Of a DNA stretch of 64,000 nucleotides, positions 6,360-18,500 are shown one piece after another. The stretch is from Thermothielavioides terrestris NRRL 8126 (Eukaryota > Ascomycota > Sordariomycetes > Sordariales > Chaetomiaceae). The DNA lies in contig NC_016457.1 in NCBI RefSeq assembly GCF_000226115.1, positions 3,348,001 to 3,412,000 on the forward strand, read 5' to 3'. Position numbers and translations under genes: made by a program. The first letter of the stretch is position 1, and every line of letters begins with the position of its first letter. Under the pieces are notes generated by a model. The model searched no databases. It was not told where the DNA came from and saw only the letters and a list, made by a program, of their open reading frames with translations.

Positions 6360-7998
6360 GCTTCTATGCCCTCCCCCCTTTCTAGAATGTACGTCCCTAT
6401 ATATTTAGAGGGCTAGTATTAAAAACCGGGTAGCTTTCTATAGAGGATTTCGACGATAAGCTCCTAACAAGGTCGCTCTTTCTTTACCCCTTTTATAGTC
6501 GAGCGAGTCTAGCTAGCTTAAAGCGCTATAATATAATTAGGGGTTTCTTCCTTAAGGACCTCCTCCTTAACTATAATCGTAGTATCTTCTACGACTATTT
6601 ACATAGTTTCCTCCTTTAGTAGACTATCGCTATAAGTATAATAAAGATTATTAAGATAGTATTGCCAACTAGCTAAGGCACTATATAGTTCGCTACTATA
6701 AGGAAGCCCAACTAGTTAACTACTATTAGAATTCTTAGCCAATTAATAAAGGTAACAACCTATAGTCTAGTCACTAGTATTCTAGTTGTCTTTAGCGGTA
6801 CTAGACCCCTCTTCGCTATCCTTATAGAGCTTTAAACGACTATCGAGGTAGTAGTATTCTCCTTAGAAGTGTCTAGTATATATCTCCCTATCGTAGTAAG
6901 AGCTTAAGCGACTGTTAAGTCGGTATATTTTACTATTATAGTGCGCTAAGGTAGCTAAGCCTTAGCTAGCGCTAAGGTTAGGGTTAGCTCCTCTACTATT
7001 CTATGCTTTGCTATAGCGACCGTTATAGTAGTATTCGTCGTTGCTATACCCCTCTAAGCAAAGGAATAGGTTTACATTGTCTACTTCTAGCTAGACGTTA
7101 TCTAGCTTAAAGAACTTCTTTATATAGTTTGAAGGATATAGTGTCTAGATAGGTATATCGTCTAAAGTCTCTAAGAAGTAAATATCCTAGTCTTTAATTA
7201 TATGAATATAGAATAGGCTAAACTAACGATACTCTAGCTTCTGAACTAAGTTTATATCTAGTTAGTGCACATTGTTATAGACGAGGACGAGATTATTAAT
7301 AGATATAAGTGTATTTTCTAGGCGAAATTTATATCTATAGGCCTTATTATAGCGTTTAACTATCTTTTTATAGGCTATAGCAACCTATTTAGTAATAATC
7401 TTATAATTATACTCTACTTCCTAGAGGATATAAGTATAGAAGGCAATGAGCTTTGTATAGCGTCTAGTAGGATCCTCTCCCTCTATTTGGGTATAGACAG
7501 AGTCCTAGGTAAGAATTCGCTATATAGGAATATTAAACTCGACTAGACTAATAGGCTTATAATTGTAGGTAAGAAAGAAGGGAGATATCCTATAAGAGCC
7601 TCTAATAGTTATATAATCTATATATAAGATATATAGAAGAAGCTCCCTCTACCTCTTTCCTATACTATTAGTTATCTTTGTAAATAAGGTAGTAATTGGG
7701 ATATAGCTAGCCTCATTTACACTATTTATATACAAATTATATAGCGAGATAATAACTCTCTTAATACCCAATTTACAAAGAATCTCCTTGACTTTGCCTT
7801 TAAACTTAGAGCCTCTATCAACAACTATAACTATAGGGTAACCCTAGCGATAAAAGATATACTAGGAGATAAAGGACTTGATAGATTTAAAGGACTTGTT
7901 TAGTAGGATCTTAGCCTTAACGTATTCTATAAGATCGTTGTAAGCCTCGACAAGGAAATACTTCTTCTCTCTATAGCTAGATGGTATATATTAGATGT
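6360..7998 (-). pseudogene. G1 copy A integrase C-terminal part (pol fragment)
   Basis: This is the minus-strand counterpart of copy B about 40160-41640, covering the end of the integrase core and the downstream pol tail. The pol frame is shattered by stop codons. It ends at GATGT (7994-7998), where the copia element is inserted, and the homology continues at 15563 after the second GATGT. It encoded DNA integration functions of the G1 element. It cannot be functional now. Confidence 0.68.
7994..7998. repeat. copia target-site duplication, left copy (GATGT)
   Basis: GATGT here and at 15558-15562 flank the copia element exactly. With one copy removed, the joined flanks match the uninterrupted reverse complement of copy B around 40165-40175. 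Confidence 0.95.
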
Positions 7999-8180
7999 TG
8001 TCGCGTGCTAGTGCACACGTGACTCTATCTGCCAGGCTCCCTGCGCTCAGGGGGCACATGTCAGCTCTGCCCACACATGTATATAGACCTCGGCGCTCCT
8101 CCCACCCAGCTTGAGAGGAGCACCTCTCTCAATACACATGCCTCTGCATCCTGCATGGCCCCACTTCGCTGCTCTTCTCA
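7999..8180 (+). repeat. copia 5' LTR (182 bp)
   Basis: The LTR starts TGTCGCGTGC and ends TTCTCA (TG...CA). It is identical to 15376-15557 except at 8174. It would carry the promoter for the genomic RNA. Confidence 0.96.
8080..8086 (+). promoter_or_regulatory. Probable TATA box in copia 5' LTR
   Basis: TATATAG occurs in the context CACATGTATATAGACCTCGG, inside the LTR about 95 bp before its end. The same motif and context are kept in the diverged solo LTR at 50645-50838 (minus strand GTGTATATAGATCTCAG). This supports a core-promoter role. Confidence 0.6.
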
Positions 8181-8191
8181 GTTATGAGCCC
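8181..8191 (+). promoter_or_regulatory. copia primer-binding site (half tRNA-iMet type)
   Basis: GTTATGAGCCC directly abuts the LTR terminal CA. Its complement, GGGCTCATAAC, matches the anticodon arm of initiator methionine tRNA (anticodon CAT). Priming from a cleaved initiator tRNA is known for Drosophila copia and yeast Ty5. The first eight bases also pair perfectly with CTCATAAC at 8207-8214, so the site can fold into a hairpin with an 18-nt loop. Confidence 0.75.
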
Positions 8192-8357
8192 GGTTCGCGC
8201 ACAACACTCATAACAGCGGTGTAGCCCAGTTGGGGCCATCCTTCTTCTTTTCTCCAACAACCACTTCCAGTTTTCTCGATCGTCAACAACTCCCACAAGT
8301 TCACATCACCCCCATCGTTCAGTCTGAACAACGCAGCACACCTCAGTTTGCTTCAAG

Positions 8358-11300
8358 ATGACACTCGAAACTGAGAAAACCGTCACCGTTGCTGTTGCAG
8401 CGCTTCCAACCCTCGACAGCCCCAAGGACTGGCCAAGATGGATCTCTGCTGTTCGCCAAGAGGCCAACAACCTGCGTGTCTGGCACATCATCGACCCAGA
8501 CACCGAGCTCGCCACCGAGGCTGAGATGCTCGGCCTTCCTGTGCAGCCCACCCAGGGTGCGGCACGTCAGGCGGTCCAGGACCGCCATCTTCAGGCGTGG
8601 CACACTGCACTGCAAGCCTGGAAGGCAGCCGATCCCACCACCCGTGGCGAGGAACCTCAGTCAACCAATCCTACTGAGGAGGAGATCCGCCGTGAATTCC
8701 TCAAGCTGTGCGAGGCGTTCTCGAAGTCCGCCATCGACACTGCGGCGTTCCGTGCCGTCAACAAGCTCCGCGAGATGATCAACGTGTCTGTCAGCGACCG
8801 CTACGCACACACCGCACACGACATCATGGAGGCCGAGAACGTCACCGGCACACGCGGGTTTATACAGACGCTGCGCAAGATTATCGCACCCTCCAACAGC
8901 GCTACTTTCACTGCGCTTGCCGAGGAGTACGCAACTGTCCTTGCCAGAGGCAGCCAGAGCGGCGTCGAACCCAGGACCTGGATTCTCGAGTACATGTCGG
9001 TCCTCCACCGCGCAAGGGCGGCCAACATCGCCGCAGTCACCGACGCAACAGCCGTCACCACATTCCTCAAGACTGTGCAGAGACGCTTGGATCCAGAGTG
9101 GGCGACTCGCATGCTGAAGGATATCAGTGTGACTGAGAAGCTCGGCGGCAAAGGACCAACCCTTCTCGACTTGGCTCTCTCACTCGAGGCGATCCTCCAG
9201 GCTGAAGCGGTGGTCCACCCGAAGCCTGGAGCCTACCCCGTGCTTCCAGGAGCGCAGAACGGTCAGAAGGGCAGTCAGAAGCGCAAGAAGAACCGCGACT
9301 GCCCGTGCAAGCCGAAGACTTTTCGCCACTGGTGGTTTCCCTCGGAATGTCGGCAACTTCGGTACGCTCTGACAGGGGAATCCCTGAACGGCGTGACGCT
9401 CCCAAACGACGCGGTGAATGCAGTGCGCCAACGATTCGCCAAGGAGCGCTGGAACGACCTTCGAGTGGAGCTCCAGAAGCTCGGTTGGAAGATCCAGAAC
9501 GCATCGTCAAACGCCAAGACCACTAGTTCCAATAGTGGCGCGGGTCCTTCATTTCCGGGAGCGCTCCAGGTGCACGCTGTCATCGACCCAGCGATCGCAA
9601 GCGAGCTCGAAGGAGCGCGTGGCGTGTTCGCATCTCTCGAGTTTGGCCCACACCCGCTCAGCAAGTGCATTCTGTTTGACAACTGTGGAGCGGTCAATCT
9701 CGTCAATGACAGGGCTCTCCTTGTCCCTGGCACGTTCGTCAAGACGAGCGGTGAGACTGTTGAGGCAGGCACCACATCCTTCCCAATCTCTGGCCGCGGC
9801 AAATGGATCATCAAGAACGTTTTGAACGGCGCGCGCGGCCCGAACACTGAGGACCTTGTCATAGACAACGTTGCTGTCGTCGAGGGCTTTCACGTCAACA
9901 TTGTCTCTGAGAGACGCCTTCGAGCGCAGGGCGCTTGGTACTGCGGTCTGGATTGCACGCTGCGTTGGGGAACTTTGGAGAAGAGTATTGTACTCAGGCA
10001 GCTGGTCGAGAAGTTCAACCTGACCTTCTTGCAATACAATGCTCTTTCCTCCTACTCTGATGCCCTTCGGGTGCTCCCCAGAAGCTTTGCCGGACTTGTG
10101 ACTTTGAGCGCTGCAGTTGTGAAGAACTTTGGGAGGAGCAGGCCCTCCAAGGACCCGCTCCCAGAGAGAGAAGACCCAGCTGCTCTCTGGCACATCAGAT
10201 CTGGTCATCTGAGTTCAGAGGCGCTGGAACATCTCGTCTTGAACGCCAGAGGTGTGCGGATTCGCGGGCCTCGCAGACTGGAATGCGAGGTATGCGCGCA
10301 GGCATACGCGGAACAGGTTATTTCGCGCCGCCCACCATCGAAGCCGTCACCACGCCCATTTTGGAGGGTCTCTTGGGACCTGTTCGACTTTCCGAGGGCA
10401 CTTGACGGCTCGAACTGGCTGCTGGTCATCAAGGACGAGTACAGTGGGAAGCTTTTCGCGACTCCACTCATACGCAAGACGCACGACAGTGTGTACGATG
10501 AGCTCGTCCGCTTCGAACGCTGGGTGAAACGCCAATTCGGGCTGCCCATCTGCAAGATCAGGCAGGATGGCGACACCAGTGTCATTGGCATCAAGGGATA
10601 CACAGCGTACGAGCTCTGGGCGCAGGAGCAGGGCATCGACTTGGAGGTTACGCCTTCGGATACCAAGGAGCCCAACGGCGGTTCAGAACGCGCAGGCAAA
10701 GAACTTATCACAAAGAGCCTTGCAATGCTCACGGGCGCCGGACTTCCTCAGAACCTGTGGCCAGAGTCGACGGTTGCAGCTGCGTACTTGCACGGCATAA
10801 GCCCAAGTCGCGCTCGCAACTACCGCTCACCGAACGAGGTGCTCGACTCTTGGTTCAGACACTGGTTTCGCTGGTATCAGCCCGGTCTCGTGCATTCCCT
10901 GACTGCCGACCTGCGCCCTAACTGGGGCGGCGTTTATGCGTACGGCTGCCGAGCGTACCCGCTGACGAAGGAACGCGAAAAGGGGATTGAGAGGCGTGCT
11001 GGGAAGGTCAAGCCCAGAGCGCACATCGGGTATCTTGTTGGATACAGGGCGTCCAACATTTACCGCATCTGGGTACCGAAACTCAGGAAGGTCATCACAA
11101 CGCGCAACGTGACCTTTGACGAACGCACGTTCTACCGGGAGGGAGAGGAGCAGCTTGATGCTCAATCGGTGGCAGTCGCCAGAAAGGTTGTTGAGCTCAT
11201 CGAACTCCCCATAGAGCCTCGGGACGCCGAGGCAGTGCCGTTCGGAGTTACAGATGCCCATGAAGACCCAGTGACGGTTCCCGGCTCTCCAGGACATCTG

Positions 11301-13727
11301 GGGGGTGTGACTGAACGGGAACCGGAAGGGCAGGCTCCTCCCCACTCTCCATCCTGTCTGGGGGGTGCGGAAGTACTCGAGCATCGCGGCCAGAGTTCGG
11401 GTGAGGAGCCCACTGGTGGTCTTTACACTCCAGAACCAACACCGGAGCCGCGCCAGGAACGCCCGGACGGTTTTGGAGGGAGCGGCCCCCCTGCTGATCA
11501 CGGTGCTAGCAGTGACAGCAGACCGGTGGGAACTGCATCATCGGAGGCCCCTGATGCAGTTATCGGAGACGCCAGTAGCAGCGTCGCTGGCGGCACAACT
11601 AGGAGTGCCAGCCAGGGCAGCACGACGGCAAGTGCTGCCGCAGTCGATACTCCTAGCAGTGAAGAGGAGGTCGACCGCCCTGGCGATCAGCCAGAGGCTC
11701 CAGACGACTGGGAAGACGCCTCAAACCATGGTTCTCAGCCTGATTCTGGAACACCCGCAGCCACGCCAGCGAGGGAGAAGCGCAAGTACGTGCGCAAGGT
11801 ATACGGACCACCAACTCGTTACTCAAGACGGATCCGTAGACAGTCTCCCGGCGGCGGTGCAGGCGGAAGCGGCGGTCTGGTGTGCTTCGCAGCCCCCATG
11901 TACCATGAGGAGAGCATCGACGTACCAGATCAGCACGCGTGGCATTCGTTCAGCCACACATTTTTGGATGACCCTGTAATCGCTCTGCAGGAGGGCGACA
12001 GCATCCAGCACCGCACATTGCATGCGGTTTTCGCGGCGGCAGTCCGCCAACATCGTGACGCGCGTCCTGGGGCAACGCCAAGCAGGCCCCGGGTGCATTT
12101 TGACGACCTCGCCAAGCTTCCTAAGCGCTGGAGGGATCTCGCCAACCACCCTCAAGGGCCCGAGTTCATCAAAGCGGCTGAGGAAGAGATTCGCAATCTC
12201 GTCAACAGGAAGACATGGCGCAAGATTCGGCGCGAGACCTTCAAAGGAAGACCACTCCCTCTGAAGTGGGTTTTCGTCTACAAGTTCGATCAGAATGGCA
12301 ACCTCGAGAAGTGCAAGTCTCGCATCTGCGTTCGAGGCGACCTTCAGGAGCTCACTACTCTGCAAAGCACTTATGCAGCCACACTCGCAGCGCGCTCGTT
12401 CCGCACAATGATGGCTATCGCCGCGCAGTTTGATCTTGAGGTCAAGCAGTTCGACGTAGCGCAGGCGTTCTTGAATGCGGACCTGCCTGAGGGTGTTGTT
12501 TGCGAGATGCCTGAGGGGTTCGAAGAGCCTGGATTTCTTGTGGAACTGCAGAGAGCTCTGTACGGCTTGCGAGAGTCTCCGTTGCTCTGGTACCGAGAGT
12601 TCTCCGGCACACTTCGGAAGCTCGGCCTCACAGCTTCGCCTGAGGAGCCATGCTTGTTCTTCGATCGCCAACGGCGCGTGCTCGTGCTGTTCTACGTGGA
12701 CGACTACCTAGTCTTCTACCACAGAGACCACGCGGAGACAGCTCAGAGGATCATCGACGCTCTGAAAGCGAAGTACGAAGTGCACGAAAAGGGGGACGTG
12801 GCTTGGTTCCTGGGCATCAGGGTGATCCGCGACCGCGCGCAACGCAAGATCTGGCTCTGCCTTGACCAGTACATCGAGAAGATTGCGAAGCGCTTCGGTC
12901 TCGCGGATCAAATCACCTTTCCAAGCATCCCTCTCCCTGTAATGGAACTCCGCAAGTTCACTGGCACTGCCACTCGAGCGCAGATCAGGCTGTTCCAGGA
13001 GCTTGTTGGATCGCTACTCTACGCCGCGGTCGTACTGCGCGCGGAGGTCGCGTTCCCGGCATCGTTGCTCTCGCACTTCCTGACGAACCCCTCGGGGACA
13101 CACATTGATGCTGCAAAGCATGCAATCTCCTACCTGTTTGGCACGCGCTTCCTCGCTATTCAGTTCGGGGGTGTGCCGCAGGATGCTGCTCCCACGCAAA
13201 TCTTGCTCATCGCAGGGGACGCGTCGCATGCGGATGATCCTGATACGCGCAGGTCGTCACAAGGCTATCTCATCTCTCTGTTCGGTGGGCTCGTTCATTG
13301 GAAGGCTGCGCGCCAAGATACAGTCACCACCTCGTCTACGGAGGCGGAGCTCCTCGCTCTGTCCACCGCAGCGCGGGAGACAATGGCGTTCAAGCGTTTC
13401 CTCAGCGACCTGCAACTTGAGCTGGGTGTGCCTTGGACTGTGTTCTGTGACAACACGCAGACCATCCGGCTCGTGGTGGGAGAGAACGAACGCATCAGCA
13501 CTCGCCTGCGTCATGTTGACATCCACAACATGTGGCTGCGTCAGGAACACGCGAAGGGATCTTTCGAGGTCGCGTACTTGCCAACTGCTGAGATGCCTGC
13601 AGATGGGCTTACGAAGGTGTTGACTCGCCAGAAGTTCGAGCACTTCAGGGAGCTCCTCAACCTGCAGGATGTGCGTCATATGGTGCAGGGAGACGATCAG
13701 GGGGACAGGAACGCAAGGCTTGAGTAA
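8358..13727 (+). CDS. copia gag-pol polyprotein (1789 aa)
   Basis: This single uninterrupted ORF encodes capsid, protease, integrase, reverse transcriptase and RNase H. Gag is about residues 1-330 and ends in a Cys/His cluster (C315, C317, H324, C331), an atypical zinc knuckle. The protease motif is LFDNCGA with D441; copia proteases usually have D-S/T-G. The pre-integrase zinc site is H612, H617, C643, C646. The integrase core has D674 (SWDLFDF), D737 (RQDGD) and E777 (GGSERAGK). A Pro/Ser/Gly/Glu-rich linker follows (about 930-1180). RT has QFDVAQAFLNADLPEG and YVDD at 1446-1449. RNase H has D1621 (GDASHADD), E1662 (SSTEAELLAL) and D1698 (CDNTQ). The ATG is the first in frame, 177 bp after the LTR. 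No stop or frameshift separates gag and pol, so stoichiometry must be set by another route, probably proteolysis. All catalytic residues are present and no RIP damage is seen. Confidence 0.97.
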   Translation: MTLETEKTVTVAVAALPTLDSPKDWPRWISAVRQEANNLRVWHIIDPDTELATEAEMLGLPVQPTQGAARQAVQDRHLQAWHTALQAWKAADPTTRGEEPQSTNPTEEEIRREFLKLCEAFSKSAIDTAAFRAVNKLREMINVSVSDRYAHTAHDIMEAENVTGTRGFIQTLRKIIAPSNSATFTALAEEYATVLARGSQSGVEPRTWILEYMSVLHRARAANIAAVTDATAVTTFLKTVQRRLDPEWATRMLKDISVTEKLGGKGPTLLDLALSLEAILQAEAVVHPKPGAYPVLPGAQNGQKGSQKRKKNRDCPCKPKTFRHWWFPSECRQLRYALTGESLNGVTLPNDAVNAVRQRFAKERWNDLRVELQKLGWKIQNASSNAKTTSSNSGAGPSFPGALQVHAVIDPAIASELEGARGVFASLEFGPHPLSKCILFDNCGAVNLVNDRALLVPGTFVKTSGETVEAGTTSFPISGRGKWIIKNVLNGARGPNTEDLVIDNVAVVEGFHVNIVSERRLRAQGAWYCGLDCTLRWGTLEKSIVLRQLVEKFNLTFLQYNALSSYSDALRVLPRSFAGLVTLSAAVVKNFGRSRPSKDPLPEREDPAALWHIRSGHLSSEALEHLVLNARGVRIRGPRRLECEVCAQAYAEQVISRRPPSKPSPRPFWRVSWDLFDFPRALDGSNWLLVIKDEYSGKLFATPLIRKTHDSVYDELVRFERWVKRQFGLPICKIRQDGDTSVIGIKGYTAYELWAQEQGIDLEVTPSDTKEPNGGSERAGKELITKSLAMLTGAGLPQNLWPESTVAAAYLHGISPSRARNYRSPNEVLDSWFRHWFRWYQPGLVHSLTADLRPNWGGVYAYGCRAYPLTKEREKGIERRAGKVKPRAHIGYLVGYRASNIYRIWVPKLRKVITTRNVTFDERTFYREGEEQLDAQSVAVARKVVELIELPIEPRDAEAVPFGVTDAHEDPVTVPGSPGHLGGVTEREPEGQAPPHSPSCLGGAEVLEHRGQSSGEEPTGGLYTPEPTPEPRQERPDGFGGSGPPADHGASSDSRPVGTASSEAPDAVIGDASSSVAGGTTRSASQGSTTASAAAVDTPSSEEEVDRPGDQPEAPDDWEDASNHGSQPDSGTPAATPAREKRKYVRKVYGPPTRYSRRIRRQSPGGGAGGSGGLVCFAAPMYHEESIDVPDQHAWHSFSHTFLDDPVIALQEGDSIQHRTLHAVFAAAVRQHRDARPGATPSRPRVHFDDLAKLPKRWRDLANHPQGPEFIKAAEEEIRNLVNRKTWRKIRRETFKGRPLPLKWVFVYKFDQNGNLEKCKSRICVRGDLQELTTLQSTYAATLAARSFRTMMAIAAQFDLEVKQFDVAQAFLNADLPEGVVCEMPEGFEEPGFLVELQRALYGLRESPLLWYREFSGTLRKLGLTASPEEPCLFFDRQRRVLVLFYVDDYLVFYHRDHAETAQRIIDALKAKYEVHEKGDVAWFLGIRVIRDRAQRKIWLCLDQYIEKIAKRFGLADQITFPSIPLPVMELRKFTGTATRAQIRLFQELVGSLLYAAVVLRAEVAFPASLLSHFLTNPSGTHIDAAKHAISYLFGTRFLAIQFGGVPQDAAPTQILLIAGDASHADDPDTRRSSQGYLISLFGGLVHWKAARQDTVTTSSTEAELLALSTAARETMAFKRFLSDLQLELGVPWTVFCDNTQTIRLVVGENERISTRLRHVDIHNMWLRQEHAKGSFEVAYLPTAEMPADGLTKVLTRQKFEHFRELLNLQDVRHMVQGDDQGDRNARLE
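11297..11367 (+). repeat. Two internal copies of the copia polypurine motif
   Basis: TCTGGGGGGTG occurs at 11297-11307 and 11357-11367 inside the linker between integrase and RT. The same 11 bases precede the 3' LTR (15365-15375). The second copy shares 14 bases with the terminal tract (CTGTCTGGGGGGTG). In protein they read as a short imperfect repeat (SPGHLGGV and SPSCLGGA). They could act as central polypurine tracts, or simply reflect the peptide repeat. Confidence 0.45.
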
Positions 13728-13814
13728 AAAACAAACTAAACACAGGAGCGCACGCCGGCGCAAAACAGACTGGGGGGTGCCCGCACCCGCGAAACAACAA
13801 ACAACAACGCGGAA

Positions 13815-14728
13815 CTACTTGCCACCCTTCTTCTTCTTGGGAGTCATGGCGGCCAGCACCGCCGCCGCCACACCACGCGCCAGCGCCTCCGGGTCAAAGC
13901 CCGGAGCAGCCTCCTCCTCGCTCTCGTCCTCATCCTCGTCCTCCTCCTCGCTCTCCTCCTTCTTGGCCTTCTTGGCCTTCTTGGACTTCTTGGTGGGCGC
14001 GGCCGCCTTTGCCTTGCCCTTGCCCTTGCCCTTGGCGGGCGCGGGCGCGCGCTCGTCGTCATCGTCGTCGTCATCCTCGGCGTCGGCGTCCTCGCCCTCC
14101 ATGGCGAGGAGGGCGCGCAGGGTGGCGCGCAGCGTCTTCTGGTCCTACCACACACAGTCAGACTAGCTCTTTTCCTTTGTCTTTTCATTTGTACTCACGA
14201 GATTGGCCTTGGGCTCCTGGCGCCCCTGCATCAGGGCCAGGAAGTGCTTGGCGGCGGGGAGCACACTCGCGGGGCTGATTCATCAGTACCGTGCGCCTTG
14301 CAACTGTGCTGACAGACTTACATGGAGCGACACTTCTTGCCGCGCGCACAGCGCGCGCACCGGGCCGCTTTGCCGGGGGCCTCCCGGCACTCCCCAGAGC
14401 TCTTGCCGCGCATGGCGGACTTCAGGCAACCCAGGCAGGGCTGCTCTCTCAGGGCGCCCTCCTCCTCCTCATCCTCCGAAGAGGAGGAGGAGGAGGAGGG
14501 GGGCGCCGCACGCTTGGAGGGGGTCTTCGGCGTGGCGGGGGTCCTGCTGCAAGTGTCAGAGACGCGGATGTACGCGCCGCGCCAGTCGGGCAGATTGTGG
14601 TGTGCTCACTTCTTGCTGGCGCCAGCGCCAGCCTTGGTGGGGGTGGCCGGGAGCGGGGGAGGCTTGTTCTTGGCCGCCTTGGCGGCGCGGGCCTTCTCGA
14701 GAGCGGCGAGGCGAGCAGAGGACGGCAT
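13815..14728 (-). CDS. Antisense four-exon gene inside the copia element, Cys-rich basic/acidic protein (249 aa)
   Basis: I read a spliced gene on the strand opposite gag-pol. Exons are 14728-14610, 14546-14322, 14274-14199 and 14144-13815 (119, 225, 76 and 330 nt; 750 in all). Introns of 63, 47 and 54 bp begin GTGAGC, GTAAGT and GTGAGT and end CAG, CAG and TAG. Each has a CTGAC or CTGAT branch-like site shortly before the acceptor. All junctions keep one frame from ATG to TAG. The protein has a Lys/Ala/Pro-rich start, a Ser7 plus acidic run (57-69), a cysteine module C77-x2-C80-x12-C93-x9-C103-x2-C106-x5-C112 that could bind zinc, then acidic and Lys-rich low-complexity blocks ending KKKKGGK. 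The composition suggests a nuclear or nucleic-acid-binding protein; this is inference. I do not recognise the family. Acceptor 1 is a tandem CAGCAG, so residues 40-41 may read NR or K. The gene may be a captured host gene or an element-specific antisense ORF. Confidence 0.72.
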
Positions 14729-15364
14729 GGTTGTTGTTGTTGATGTTGTTGTTGTTGCTGATGCTGCTGCTGTTGCTCGCGGTCTGCAGAGGAAGAGTTC
14801 GGGAGATGGTTTGAGGCGCACTCACCATGATTAAATACTTCCAGGAGTGCAGCCATCGACCGGCCTGCGGCACTGCGGTATTGTCTGCATGGCGCGAATG
14901 CAACAATGGGTAGCAATGGTGGGCGTGCATTCAAGACGTTGGGCAACAAAGGCCACAATGGCACACATGCGAATGATCGCAATGCTCAATTGCGCAACCT
15001 GCACCCACAATCGAGGCGGCACGATTCAAGATACGCGCCTGAATGGAGGATGGGGATGGAACGCGCTGCGCAATTGGGAACTGCGCACAATGCGATCAAT
15101 GGCGCTCGCAACAATGCCAACGACAGCGCCCCTGAATGTCAACTTTGGCGCCCCTGGGTCTGACCGCATTCAGCGCAGCACGCAATTCGCCAACGCACGC
15201 GCCACAACGCGTACACAATGGCGCGCGGACAACTTGCACAATGGCGGCGGCTGCGCGCAATGGTGGGATCAATACCGGAGGCCACAGTTCAATGCGCCTG
15301 GCAGTGCGAGCTCCAGAGTCAGTGCCCAGCATGCGTGTTCCACAGACAGCCTCCTGAGAGTCTG
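14729..15364 (-). promoter_or_regulatory. Presumed promoter and leader of the antisense gene
   Basis: This 636-bp non-coding stretch lies between the antisense start codon and the 3' polypurine tract. On the minus strand, a CAA/CAG-repeat leader precedes the ATG. A TATTTAAT motif lies at 14837-14830, about 105 bp upstream of it. A possible 42-bp leader intron runs from 14825 (GTGAGT) to 14784 (CTGCAG). From about 14900 to 15300 the plus strand repeats CAATG at least eleven times (CATTG on the minus strand). No convincing coding frame is seen. Promoter function is inferred from position. Confidence 0.4.
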
Positions 15365-15375
15365 TCTGGGGGGTG
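15365..15375 (+). other. copia polypurine tract
   Basis: TCTGGGGGGTG lies directly against the 3' LTR (starts 15376). It is the expected primer for plus-strand synthesis. Further copies of the G-run motif occur at 11297, 11357 and 13769 (ACTGGGGGGTG). Confidence 0.75.
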
Positions 15376-15557
15376 TGTCGCGTGCTAGTGCACACGTGAC
15401 TCTATCTGCCAGGCTCCCTGCGCTCAGGGGGCACATGTCAGCTCTGCCCACACATGTATATAGACCTCGGCGCTCCTCCCACCCAGCTTGAGAGGAGCAC
15501 CTCTCTCAATACACATGCCTCTGCATCCTGCATGGCCCCACTTCGCTGCTATTCTCA
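15376..15557 (+). repeat. copia 3' LTR (182 bp)
   Basis: It matches 7999-8180 at 181 of 182 positions, with A instead of C at 15551. It is followed by the target duplication GATGT (15558-15562). Confidence 0.96.
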
Positions 15558-15562
15558 GATGT
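15558..15562. repeat. copia target-site duplication, right copy (GATGT)
   Basis: This is the second copy of the 5-bp duplication. G1 copy A sequence resumes at 15563. Confidence 0.95.
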
Positions 15563-18500
15563 TAAGGTACTATTTAGCAAAAGGAAAAGGCGAAGGCGCT
15601 ATTTAATCTACTACTTCTTTAAACCTCTAGGCATTATACGCTTAATATATACAAGCCTAAATCTACTTTATAACATCTTTATATATACTACGCTAATAGT
15701 AGTAGTTCGTTACTCGTTAGTACGTCGCCTCTCTCCTATAATAGCTAACCTCGCTATAGTACTAGTCGAAGATTAAACGCCTCTCTTTAGGGGTATCAAC
15801 AATATACCTATAACACTATATATAATTCGTACTTTAAAGGAAAAGGTAACGATCTTTAACAAAGTATTTCAACGCTTCCCTTTTAAGCTAACGTCGCTTC
15901 TAGTATAGACTATAGCTAGGTAGAGCTTCTATCGTCGATAAGAAGTAGATAATATCCTAGGAGCGCTAAGAGTAACTATCCTAAAGGTGGATAGGTTCTA
16001 GTTTCCCCTTTAGATACAAAGTCTTTTCGCTTATATAGTTAATAAAGATTTAGATATCGACCTAGTCGTCGATATCCTCTTTCGACTCCTTCTCTATATA
16101 GTTAGAGGGCCTAGACGGCTTATAGGATAATGCGTTAGCTATAACGTTCTTAGAGCCTAGAATGTACTTAATCTCAAAGTCGAATAGATGGATCTAGGCA
16201 ATCTAACGTATTATAAGAGTACCTAAAACATCGTTTATAGCACTATTAAGCTAATAGACTAGAACTAGAGTATTAGTCTCTATAGTGAAATATATATTAA
16301 AAAGGTAGTGGCGAAAACGCTTTAAAAGAAAGAGTAGCCCCCTTAGCTCCCTCTTTATAGTATTATACCGCTTCTCTACCTTTAACTAGATACCGCTCTT
16401 GAACCTATATAGATATCTCTTACTATTAGGACCAACCTACTTAAGTATACCTCTCTAGTCGAGGATACTAGCGTTGTAAACTAAGAAGATTATACTATAC
16501 TATAGATCGCTATAGATAAGCGTTGTAAAGACTAGAGCAATAGTGATTTTCTCCTTTAGCTCGTCTATCGCCTTTTACTTAGTAGGCCCCTAAGTCCATT
16601 TAGTATCCTTCTTTATCAAAGTGTAAAGAGGAATTACAATAATTGTAAAGCCCTTAATCTAGATCTAGTAGTATCCGACTATTCTAACGAAGGTATATAC
16701 CTCTTTAACGTTAGAATAGGTCTTCTACTCCTTTATCTTAATCATTTTCGCTTTCTTAGAAAGGCGTCTATCAAGTATATAAAGATAACTAAGTAAGACT
16801 ACTTTTAGCTATACCTACTTCAACTTTACTATAGCGATAGTTGTACCTACTAGCTCTACGTTTAGCAATACTATATTAATATTCTTAAAATGCTTAATAA
16901 CAAATTCGCGATATCCCCCTCTATCTAAATAGCTATTATAATTAGATCAAGGACCTTTTACTATAATATTGTCTAGGTAGACTCAACAGATATTTAGGAT
17001 AAGGTCACTAAAGATTATCGTTATAGCCTACTAGAACTAGGCAATGGAATTTATACCCCCTATTAGCAGTATATATATATAGAAGAGACTAATCAACGTT
17101 GAAAAGGTCGTTAAATTGTAGCTCTGCTCATTAAGATTAACCTAATTGTAACTAGAGAAGAGATCTAGGAGAGACATTAGCTTATAGCTATTAAAGTCTT
17201 TACTAAATTCCTCTATAGTAGATAGGATAAAAGCGTTGTAGATCGTTATAGTATTAGCCTTTTAAATATCATTGATAAGCTATAATCTACTGTCCTTTTT
17301 AAGAATAAGGAACTAGTTATTATAGTAGCTTATATAGCTATACTCGATAATCCTATATATCTACCTTTCTTTAAGTAGATCAATGACCTTCTATATTAGT
17401 GGCTTTAGAATTAGAATAGACTTACTTTACTAGGCCTTATATAGGATAGTCTTAACGTACTAGGGTAGGACAATATCCTTATAAATACGTCTATACTTAG
17501 TGAAATCCTATATAAGCATAGTTTCCTAGTTTTATAAGATCTTAGTAAACATCTCCTTTTCTAGCTTATTGAGGAACTTGTCTATAGTAGCGAGTATCGT
17601 TTAAAGACGCTCTTCGATAAGCTTTAAGCTTAGCTTAAGATCTAAGAAACGAGGGACTATAAGGTCTTCCTATTCCCTTTTAAATTGTATCTTTGCCTTA
17701 GCCTTTGTAAACTGCTTTTCTTACTATAATAGGTCTCTCTCTAGTATAGAGCTATCTAATAGTACTAAATCGACTAGTTAAACCTTATTTATAATATTCT
17801 TCTAGAGTATAAACGTCTTTAAGGTACGTCTAACCTTATACTCGAATCCTTGCCTTAGCCTCTAGTTAGAAAAGGGGCTTCTAACTAGGGTCCCCCTCTT
17901 CTCTTTTAAATAAGATAATAATTCGATCTTCGTCCATCTAGATAGAGAAGATAAAAAATAAGAATATATAACGTAAAAAAGAGTACTAAGAAGTAGTATA
18001 TAAGACTTCTATAAAACGAGATAAAAAACCACTTTACCTATATTATTGTCGAAGAAACTAAAGGCAGTCTCGCCTTCCTTTATCTCTATCTAGTTAAAGA
18101 TTCTTTTAAGACTCTTCGCTAATCTCTAGAATTGTTCCTAAACAGCTAGTTATATTAGAGATAGTAGGTAGTTCTACTAGGTAATCTTCTTAAAGACGAT
18201 ATACGTCTAGACTATCTTTCCTTCTATAAGTAGATTAATAGTAATTAGATTGCTATTATAGTAATCGAAGGTTAGAGCAATATCCTTGATAAATAGTATA
18301 TTAAGGATTGCTTTATACTTATTAGCAGTGTCCTTAGTTATAAAGAAATAAAGGTTAATGCCAACTCTACCTAGGTAAAGAGTGACCTAAGTCTCTCTAA
18401 AGAATAGTACTAAGCTATAAAGACCCTTTGAAACGACTTTAGTAAACTAGTATAGTAGTGTATATTTCTCGACGACGTTTATTAAGATATAGTTGTACTC

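Follow-up and report, generated by a model that had tools for sequence, protein, structure and literature searches.

Zhao et al. are said to have described in 2011 an additional antisense gene, brtn, in the Boty-like elements of Botrytis cinerea; Boty is a Gypsy element, unlike the Copia element analyzed here, and Grande is a Gypsy element of plants. The nuclear regulator HBZ of HTLV-1, a bZIP protein, is encoded in antisense orientation at the 3' end and is made from a spliced mRNA with its promoter in the 3' LTR. As far as the main text of PMC7264820 goes, accessory genes in antisense orientation are known from LTR retrotransposons of plants and of Botrytis, with their function open; brtn is grouped there with antisense ORFs located after pol and before the 3' LTR, and gene23 of maize Grande, a member of the aORF-3R class (Gomez-Orte et al., 2013), is described as an antisense gene located between pol and the 3' LTR with its own promoter and a nuclear protein product (PMC7264820). 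For the antisense ORFs of Retand (ORF4) and RIRE2, the text of PMC11963269 gives a long region between pol and the 3' LTR and domains predicted to bind DNA, and it states a nuclear localization for HBZ.

Like brtn, the gene described here is an additional antisense gene of a fungal LTR retrotransposon, a likeness of description, and introns of brtn are not mentioned in the main text of PMC7264820. With gene23 it shares the position, together with a candidate promoter upstream of the gene; a cysteine module is not mentioned for gene23 in the text of that source and is a feature of the gene here. Retand ORF4 and RIRE2 differ by their transposase-28 domain and their plant Gypsy lineage (text of PMC11963269), and the likeness to HBZ, which belongs to a retrovirus, is again one of description, in that a reverse-transcribing element has an antisense gene at its 3' end. 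The word "intron" is absent from the main texts of PMC7264820 and PMC11963269, as is the word "antisense" from those of two papers on Copia and LTR elements of fungi, PMC5445492 and PMC3248453. Among the open-access papers listed by our searches we recognized none on an antisense gene with introns in a Copia element or an element of fungi; the subscription originals on Boty and Grande lie outside this scope. Antisense accessory genes are already known, and what sets the gene here apart is its Copia setting and its introns.

Thermothielavioides (Thielavia) terrestris NRRL 8126 is a thermophilic, saprotrophic fungus. The window, by which we mean the whole stretch of 64,000 nucleotides analyzed, corresponds to C1:3348001-3412000 of the 36.9 Mb genome of six contigs, and deposited proteins of this Chaetomiaceae ascomycete match the antisense product. 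A Copia element occupies positions 7999-15557. It had been called intact in a sequence-only reading of the window, and this holds: gag-pol is open over 1789 aa in a single forward-strand frame (8358-13727), the two 182-bp LTRs on the same strand (5' LTR at 7999-8180, TGT...CA; 3' LTR at 15376-15557) differ by a single mismatch at 15551, and the target site duplication GATGT can be read directly on both sides (7994-7998 and 15558-15562). Pfam places SH3_retrovirus at residues 854-926, upstream of RVT_2 at residues 1296-1520, and the frame contains a YVDD motif. RVT_2, the integrase-linked SH3 domain upstream of it, LTRs bounded by TG...CA and a target duplication of 5 bp identify the element as Copia (Pseudoviridae-type).

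A putative primer binding site, GTTATGAGCCC (8181-8191, forward strand), is complementary to the anticodon arm of the host tRNA-Met and not to its 3' end, and we take it to be of the half-tRNA primer type, as in Drosophila copia. The genome matches its complement at 29 places, of which 19 are the focal copies' own sites; nine of the other 10 were tested, and three of these nine are tRNA-Met according to ARAGORN. Fungal GalEa elements are marked, as far as the text of PMC5445492 goes, by QTDD in the RT and by a hairpin directly after the 5' LTR (CTGATCAGT or CTAATTAGT, 85% of families). By these motif criteria, and not by a tree, the GalEa clade is ruled out, as gag-pol has YVDD instead of QTDD and the 5' LTR is followed by GTTATGAGC instead of the GalEa hairpin; folding of the stretch after the 5' LTR gave nothing notable (z 0.38). 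Outside positions 8000-16000 the window is AT-rich and RIP-like (31-42% GC in 2-kb bins), and no open frame of at least 250 aa is listed there.

The antisense gene extends over 13815-14728 on the minus strand, opposite gag-pol and between the pol stop (13727) and the 3' LTR (15376), which is the location of the aORF-3R class. Its four exons of 119, 225, 76 and 330 nt add up to 750 nt and thus to 249 codons followed by TAG. Exon 1 (14610-14728) begins with the ATG at 14728 and is followed by intron 1 (14547-14609; 63 nt, GTGAGC...CAG), which introduces an in-frame stop if retained. Exon 2 (14322-14546) contains a six-cysteine module and is separated by intron 2 (14275-14321; 47 nt, GTAAGT...CAG) from exon 3 (14199-14274), and intron 3 (14145-14198; 54 nt, GTGAGT...TAG) leads to exon 4 (13815-14144), which according to the splice model carries the acidic/basic tail and the C-terminal stretch and ends in TAG. 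All of these boundaries, proposed in the sequence-only reading, were confirmed when checked letter by letter. Read unspliced, each of the three minus-strand frames is interrupted within 13815-14728. The further claim that no single-frame ORF search reveals the gene stands, but the deposited model THITE_2120895 already had two of the three introns. This NCBI protein of 165 aa matches the spliced product without a difference from residue 85 to residue 249, so it was read across the same junctions 2 and 3; it is a truncated version of the antisense gene, named uncharacterised. A search of the literature for the locus tags of the antisense gene found no mention of them. Sense-strand coding in the same stretch is ruled out by a longest spliced sense frame of 135 codons and by a near-flat distribution of transversions by window coordinate (14/9/10).

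Directly upstream of the antisense ATG lies a CAA-rich leader (14729-14760, minus strand), and a TATA-like box, TATTTAA, about 105 nt upstream of the ATG is a candidate promoter (14831-14837, minus strand). The box reads TATATAA in the four copies of subfamily B as well as in L019 and L024. Its survival in decayed copies proves little, because a box without G or C is immune to repeat-induced point mutation (RIP).

The splice model alone is weak evidence for a gene and only mildly improbable: when the stretch was shuffled 500 times with a first-order Markov model, 7 of the shuffles also permitted 249 or more spliced codons in one frame by loose splice rules. These shuffles speak for a chance origin, in which a GC-rich, repetitive 3' region happens to permit the spliced frame, but we regard this as highly improbable: a protein homologue that aligns across the junctions and a divergence pattern that follows the spliced and not the continuous frame, both described below, largely refute it and raise the gene above chance.

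The homologue is BT67DRAFT_434178 (P0004 in the following), a protein of 330 aa from Trichocladium antarcticum, which represents another Chaetomiaceae genus, and it is the sole homologue found outside the species among 8000 candidates scored. The E value of the match, on a scale of 5.8 billion sequences, is 1.7e-10, and 36% of the residues are identical in an alignment of 161 columns that covers all three junctions. At junction 1 the alignment is gapped and of low complexity, with conserved residues matched on either side; LEKARAA of exon 1 is conserved in P0004, and exons 2 and 3 are covered by the alignment as well as by the splice model. The sequence-only reading had staked the gene on homologues beyond this locus, and P0004 is one, aligned across the exon junctions. 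Within the module 44% of the residues are identical and six of six cysteines are kept. Without masking or correction for composition, the raw score of the module is 51.2 bits, and the highest score among 1000 shuffles is 28.5 bits; with both, the module match reaches only E 0.034 in a single comparison. Searches started from P0004 returned only P0004 itself. A host paralogue of the product was not found in this genome among 99 candidates scored, where everything apart from the element copies and one fragment of 100% identity had E values of 0.045 or above.

The spliced product has a computed mass of 26 kDa, a pI of 9.2 and basic clusters. As the sequence-only reading had proposed, it combines a six-cysteine module with acidic and basic tails: a serine/acidic stretch is followed by the module C-x2-C-x12-C-x9-C-x2-C-x5-C and by alternating acidic and lysine-rich tails, and much of the product is of low complexity. 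A search of the product and its pieces against Pfam gave nothing above cut-off. The closest described domain in layout is the six-cysteine fungal domain DUF3716 (PF12511), which shares the arrangement C-x2-C ... C ... C-x2-C ... C with the module; it differs in that its own Pfam model does not pick up the element, having 10 loci above cut-off in the genome and none of them at the element. Membership in DUF3716 is ruled out by a score below the Pfam gathering cut-off, and the similarity of the profiles is weak (hhalign P 3.8e-4, probability 36%). The Zn(2)Cys(6) binuclear cluster (PF00172) has the spacing C-x2-C-x6-C-x5-12-C-x2-C-x6-8-C and is ruled out as well, with a second spacer of 12 in both the product and P0004 and an hhalign probability of 7%; PF00172 scores 15.9 bits on part of the P0004 module, where the Pfam cut-off is 21. 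By hhalign the module is therefore closer to DUF3716 than to Zn(2)Cys(6). A search of solved structures with the module as one sequence had no match, and with the module pair it gave two Rieske proteins only (E 0.036 and 0.062); NCBIfam gave no lead. We call the module unclassified, because Pfam has nothing above cut-off and the DUF3716 model has no match at the element; it is probably metal-binding.

The stretch is present in the genome in at least 19 near-identical copies, at least 20 divergent loci and at least one fragment of 164 bp. The antisense gene with its introns accompanies a full-length pol match in all 19 near-identical copies, and it is found in 20 decayed loci too, three of them matched only in part; as in the aORF-3R class, it is present in most copies of the family. 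By search scores 13 of the 19 are identical in the gene (8 of the 13 were checked base by base), and the other six have one common missense change, G157C, as their sole difference in the gene. The spliced frame is thus kept in 19 of 19 near-identical copies, and the frame-breaking differences between sister copies that had been named beforehand as evidence against the gene are absent among them. The near-identity of the copies argues for recent activity of the element. Gag-pol itself is less uniform: 14 of the 19 have an open stretch of 1799 codons, in one it is shortened, and in four a short insertion breaks the frame. The insertion lies at a common place in the copies at C1:4577319, C1:7734050, C2:8402873 and C5:769713, and all four have kept the antisense gene. 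Three of these four are among eight copies with unrelated 3' flanks, which indicates that a pol-broken copy was multiplied, presumably in trans.

The divergent copies are of a different kind. Compared with the window copy, L009-L017 show 194-232 transitions and only 1-5 transversions, and over eight decayed copies (L009-L013 and L015-L017, of which L015 and L017 are partly misaligned in the 5' half) 72% of the CpA and 48% of the CpG sites are changed. Judged from the aligned copies, this transition pattern is the mark of RIP-like decay. The C-to-T changes hit CpG as well and not CpA alone. Divergence in the copies of 65-79% is almost entirely made up of transitions in CpA and CpG, and their use as direct evidence of selection was rejected. 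As the decayed copies cannot be treated as if they were selected, only transversions and indels were used. Both the gene and pol are broken by RIP-like mutation in the 20 decayed copies, which therefore say nothing either way about an intact frame. All 20 decayed loci were fetched; the alignment of 17 leaves out L026, L027 and L028, in which the gene is matched only in part, and the pol figures leave out L015, L017, L019, L020, L022, L024, L027 and L028, which are misaligned or rearranged in pol. One locus, L014 (C6:3203100-3211836), is a mosaic whose pol is diverged like subfamily B and whose antisense gene is diverged like subfamily A, and its composition suggests recombination or template switching between subfamilies.

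Evidence for constraint at the protein level comes from subfamily B, which comprises four copies (L018, L021, L023 and L025). Its 33 fixed transversions in the coding part fall on codon positions one, two and three of the spliced frame in a ratio of 9/5/19 (chi-square P 0.009), and the same 33 give 9/14/10 in a continuous unspliced frame (P 0.53). The counts for exons 1 to 4 are 4/0/1, 2/2/6, 2/2/5 and 1/1/7, which means that exons 2-4 each obey their own spliced phase and that exon 1 has no third-position excess. Nonsynonymous transversions number 20 where 26.5 are expected (P 0.006), no stops are among them, and 10 of 164 intron sites carry transversions. It has to be taken into account that these 33 sites largely represent one divergence common to four copies; the same test in subfamily C, which consists of two copies, was not significant (P 0.25). 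In pol, which served as positive control, transversions are distributed 10/11/50 by codon position, and constraint in the antisense frame is hence weaker than in pol. Among the 17 decayed copies that were aligned, indels in exons come in multiples of three (3, 6, 9 and 18 nt), with one offsetting pair of 5 nt in L022, an alignment shift, as the exception; intron 3 has indels of 4 and 1 nt. The exons join to a length that is a multiple of three in 17 of 17 copies. Repeat slippage alone would also favor multiples of three in the GAG/GAC-rich stretches of the gene. Conservation at the protein level, a further property of the aORF-3R class, is accordingly found here in the homology to P0004 and in the divergence of subfamily B, at a strength below that of pol. 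At the level of the sequence the antisense gene is real and the core of the earlier interpretation, a protein-coding antisense gene transmitted with the element, holds, given the homologue across the junctions, the divergence in the spliced frame and the intact frame in 19 of 19 copies.

A gene of this kind might be nothing but a host gene that was captured with its introns in antisense orientation and is carried along as a neutral passenger without a role for the element. The introns resemble those common in fungi, the entry for P0004 is that of an ordinary protein with one member on one contig, and third positions of the antisense frame diverge by 7.3-8.1% as compared with 2.8% in pol (four subfamily-B copies), with the antisense introns also diverging faster than the third positions of pol. 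Nevertheless, we consider a passenger distinctly unlikely, as this genome has no host paralogue among the candidates scored, the gene is open in every near-identical copy and constraint is detectable between subfamilies A and B. It is also conceivable that the antisense transcript, convergent and spanning the 3' part of the element, acts as RNA, forming dsRNA with the genomic RNA and thereby tuning copy number or silencing, with the reading frame as a by-product. By position such a transcript would be wholly complementary to the genomic RNA over 13815-14728, and antisense non-coding RNAs of retroelements are discussed in the main text of PMC7264820. An RNA role, however, needs neither a codon-phase constraint nor a protein homologue across the junctions nor splice sites, and seems unlikely to us.

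We therefore think it probable that a recently active Copia element carries an antisense accessory gene that codes for a helper protein expressed in the nucleus, comparable to aORF-3R genes such as Grande GENE23. According to this model, the gene would be transcribed in the nucleus from integrated DNA, starting at its own TATA-type promoter just inside the 3' LTR, and the transcript would be spliced and translated into the 26-kDa basic protein, in which the probably metal-binding six-cysteine module would be flanked by low-complexity acidic and lysine-rich tails. The TATA-like box and the basic clusters are hints at a possible antisense promoter of its own and a possible nuclear location. The introns would pass intact through every cycle of retrotransposition, as the sense genomic RNA offers no splice sites at their borders, and since this RNA is presumably neither spliced there nor coding for the protein, expression would be limited to integrated DNA. 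Most likely, the product would be a nuclear helper of the element's life cycle that binds nucleic acid or chromatin, and candidate steps at which it may act are transcription, nuclear entry or the choice of the integration site.

The last of these steps can be set against the surroundings of the insertions. The 3' flank of 600 bp has a GC content below 45% in 18 of the 19 near-identical copies (the window copy, L001-L008 and L067-L076). A GC content this low is seen in 7 of 40 genome samples taken at even spacing (Fisher P 1.2e-8) and in 3 of 25 copies sampled from a sister Copia family (P 2.8e-8 versus the focal family). The sister family has 45-48% identity to the focal family in the pol part (five compared). 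Its 25 copies were taken in rank order, leaving out one partial hit, from at least 37 loci at 35-48% identity among the best 80 of 204 candidates; five of them were checked as one family (88% identical), and the element end determined there was carried over to the other 20. Older decayed copies of the focal family have such a flank in 14 of 17 cases, where spreading of RIP could also lower the GC content. The different flank counts point to a strong bias of insertion or survival: RIP-like islands are preferred by the focal family, or are where it survives, and this is not so in the sister family.

As a refinement of the helper model, it has to be considered whether the product is an integration-targeting factor that sends the element into RIP-mutated heterochromatin. 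Besides the flanks, this would fit the observation that no chromodomain is listed in gag-pol (Pfam, E up to 1). However, in Ty5 and the chromoviruses the targeting function is part of the integrase, and also here targeting may lie in the integrase or in the composition of the target DNA, or the pattern may reflect survival bias, any of which would do equally well; moreover, AT-rich flanks are taken as heterochromatin by inference. A role of the antisense protein in the AT-rich insertion bias is thus possible, and a targeting factor as such is in our view rather doubtful. The more specific idea that a nuclear cysteine-module protein, expressed only from integrated DNA, steers the Copia element into RIP-mutated heterochromatin as a trans-encoded antisense factor for targeting or for tolerance of silencing appears doubtful.

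In the sister family (L037-L041), pol and the 3' LTR are likewise separated by about 1.2 kb (roughly positions 1620-2820 of the loci, counted in sense direction). When a profile was built from the window product, P0004 and the 17 decayed copies, four of these five sister copies showed a weak antisense match, all at a common place (E 0.0012, 0.0022, 0.043 and 0.21; E 2.9 in the fifth copy, L040), and none of 200 shuffles scored as high, with a RIP-biased composition of both profile and targets. At the same place tblastn of the plain product and of P0004 gave nothing better than E 4.4. Because of the RIP bias and the missing tblastn match, we do not count the sister-family match as a homologue.

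Returning to the antisense gene of the focal family, genes of this type hide from annotation, as is evident from a deposited model that is truncated and called uncharacterised. The three introns would provide an unambiguous, strand-specific mark of antisense gene expression. Furthermore, the series of subfamilies, the homologue in a second genus and the contrasting sister family make the role of an antisense accessory gene directly testable.
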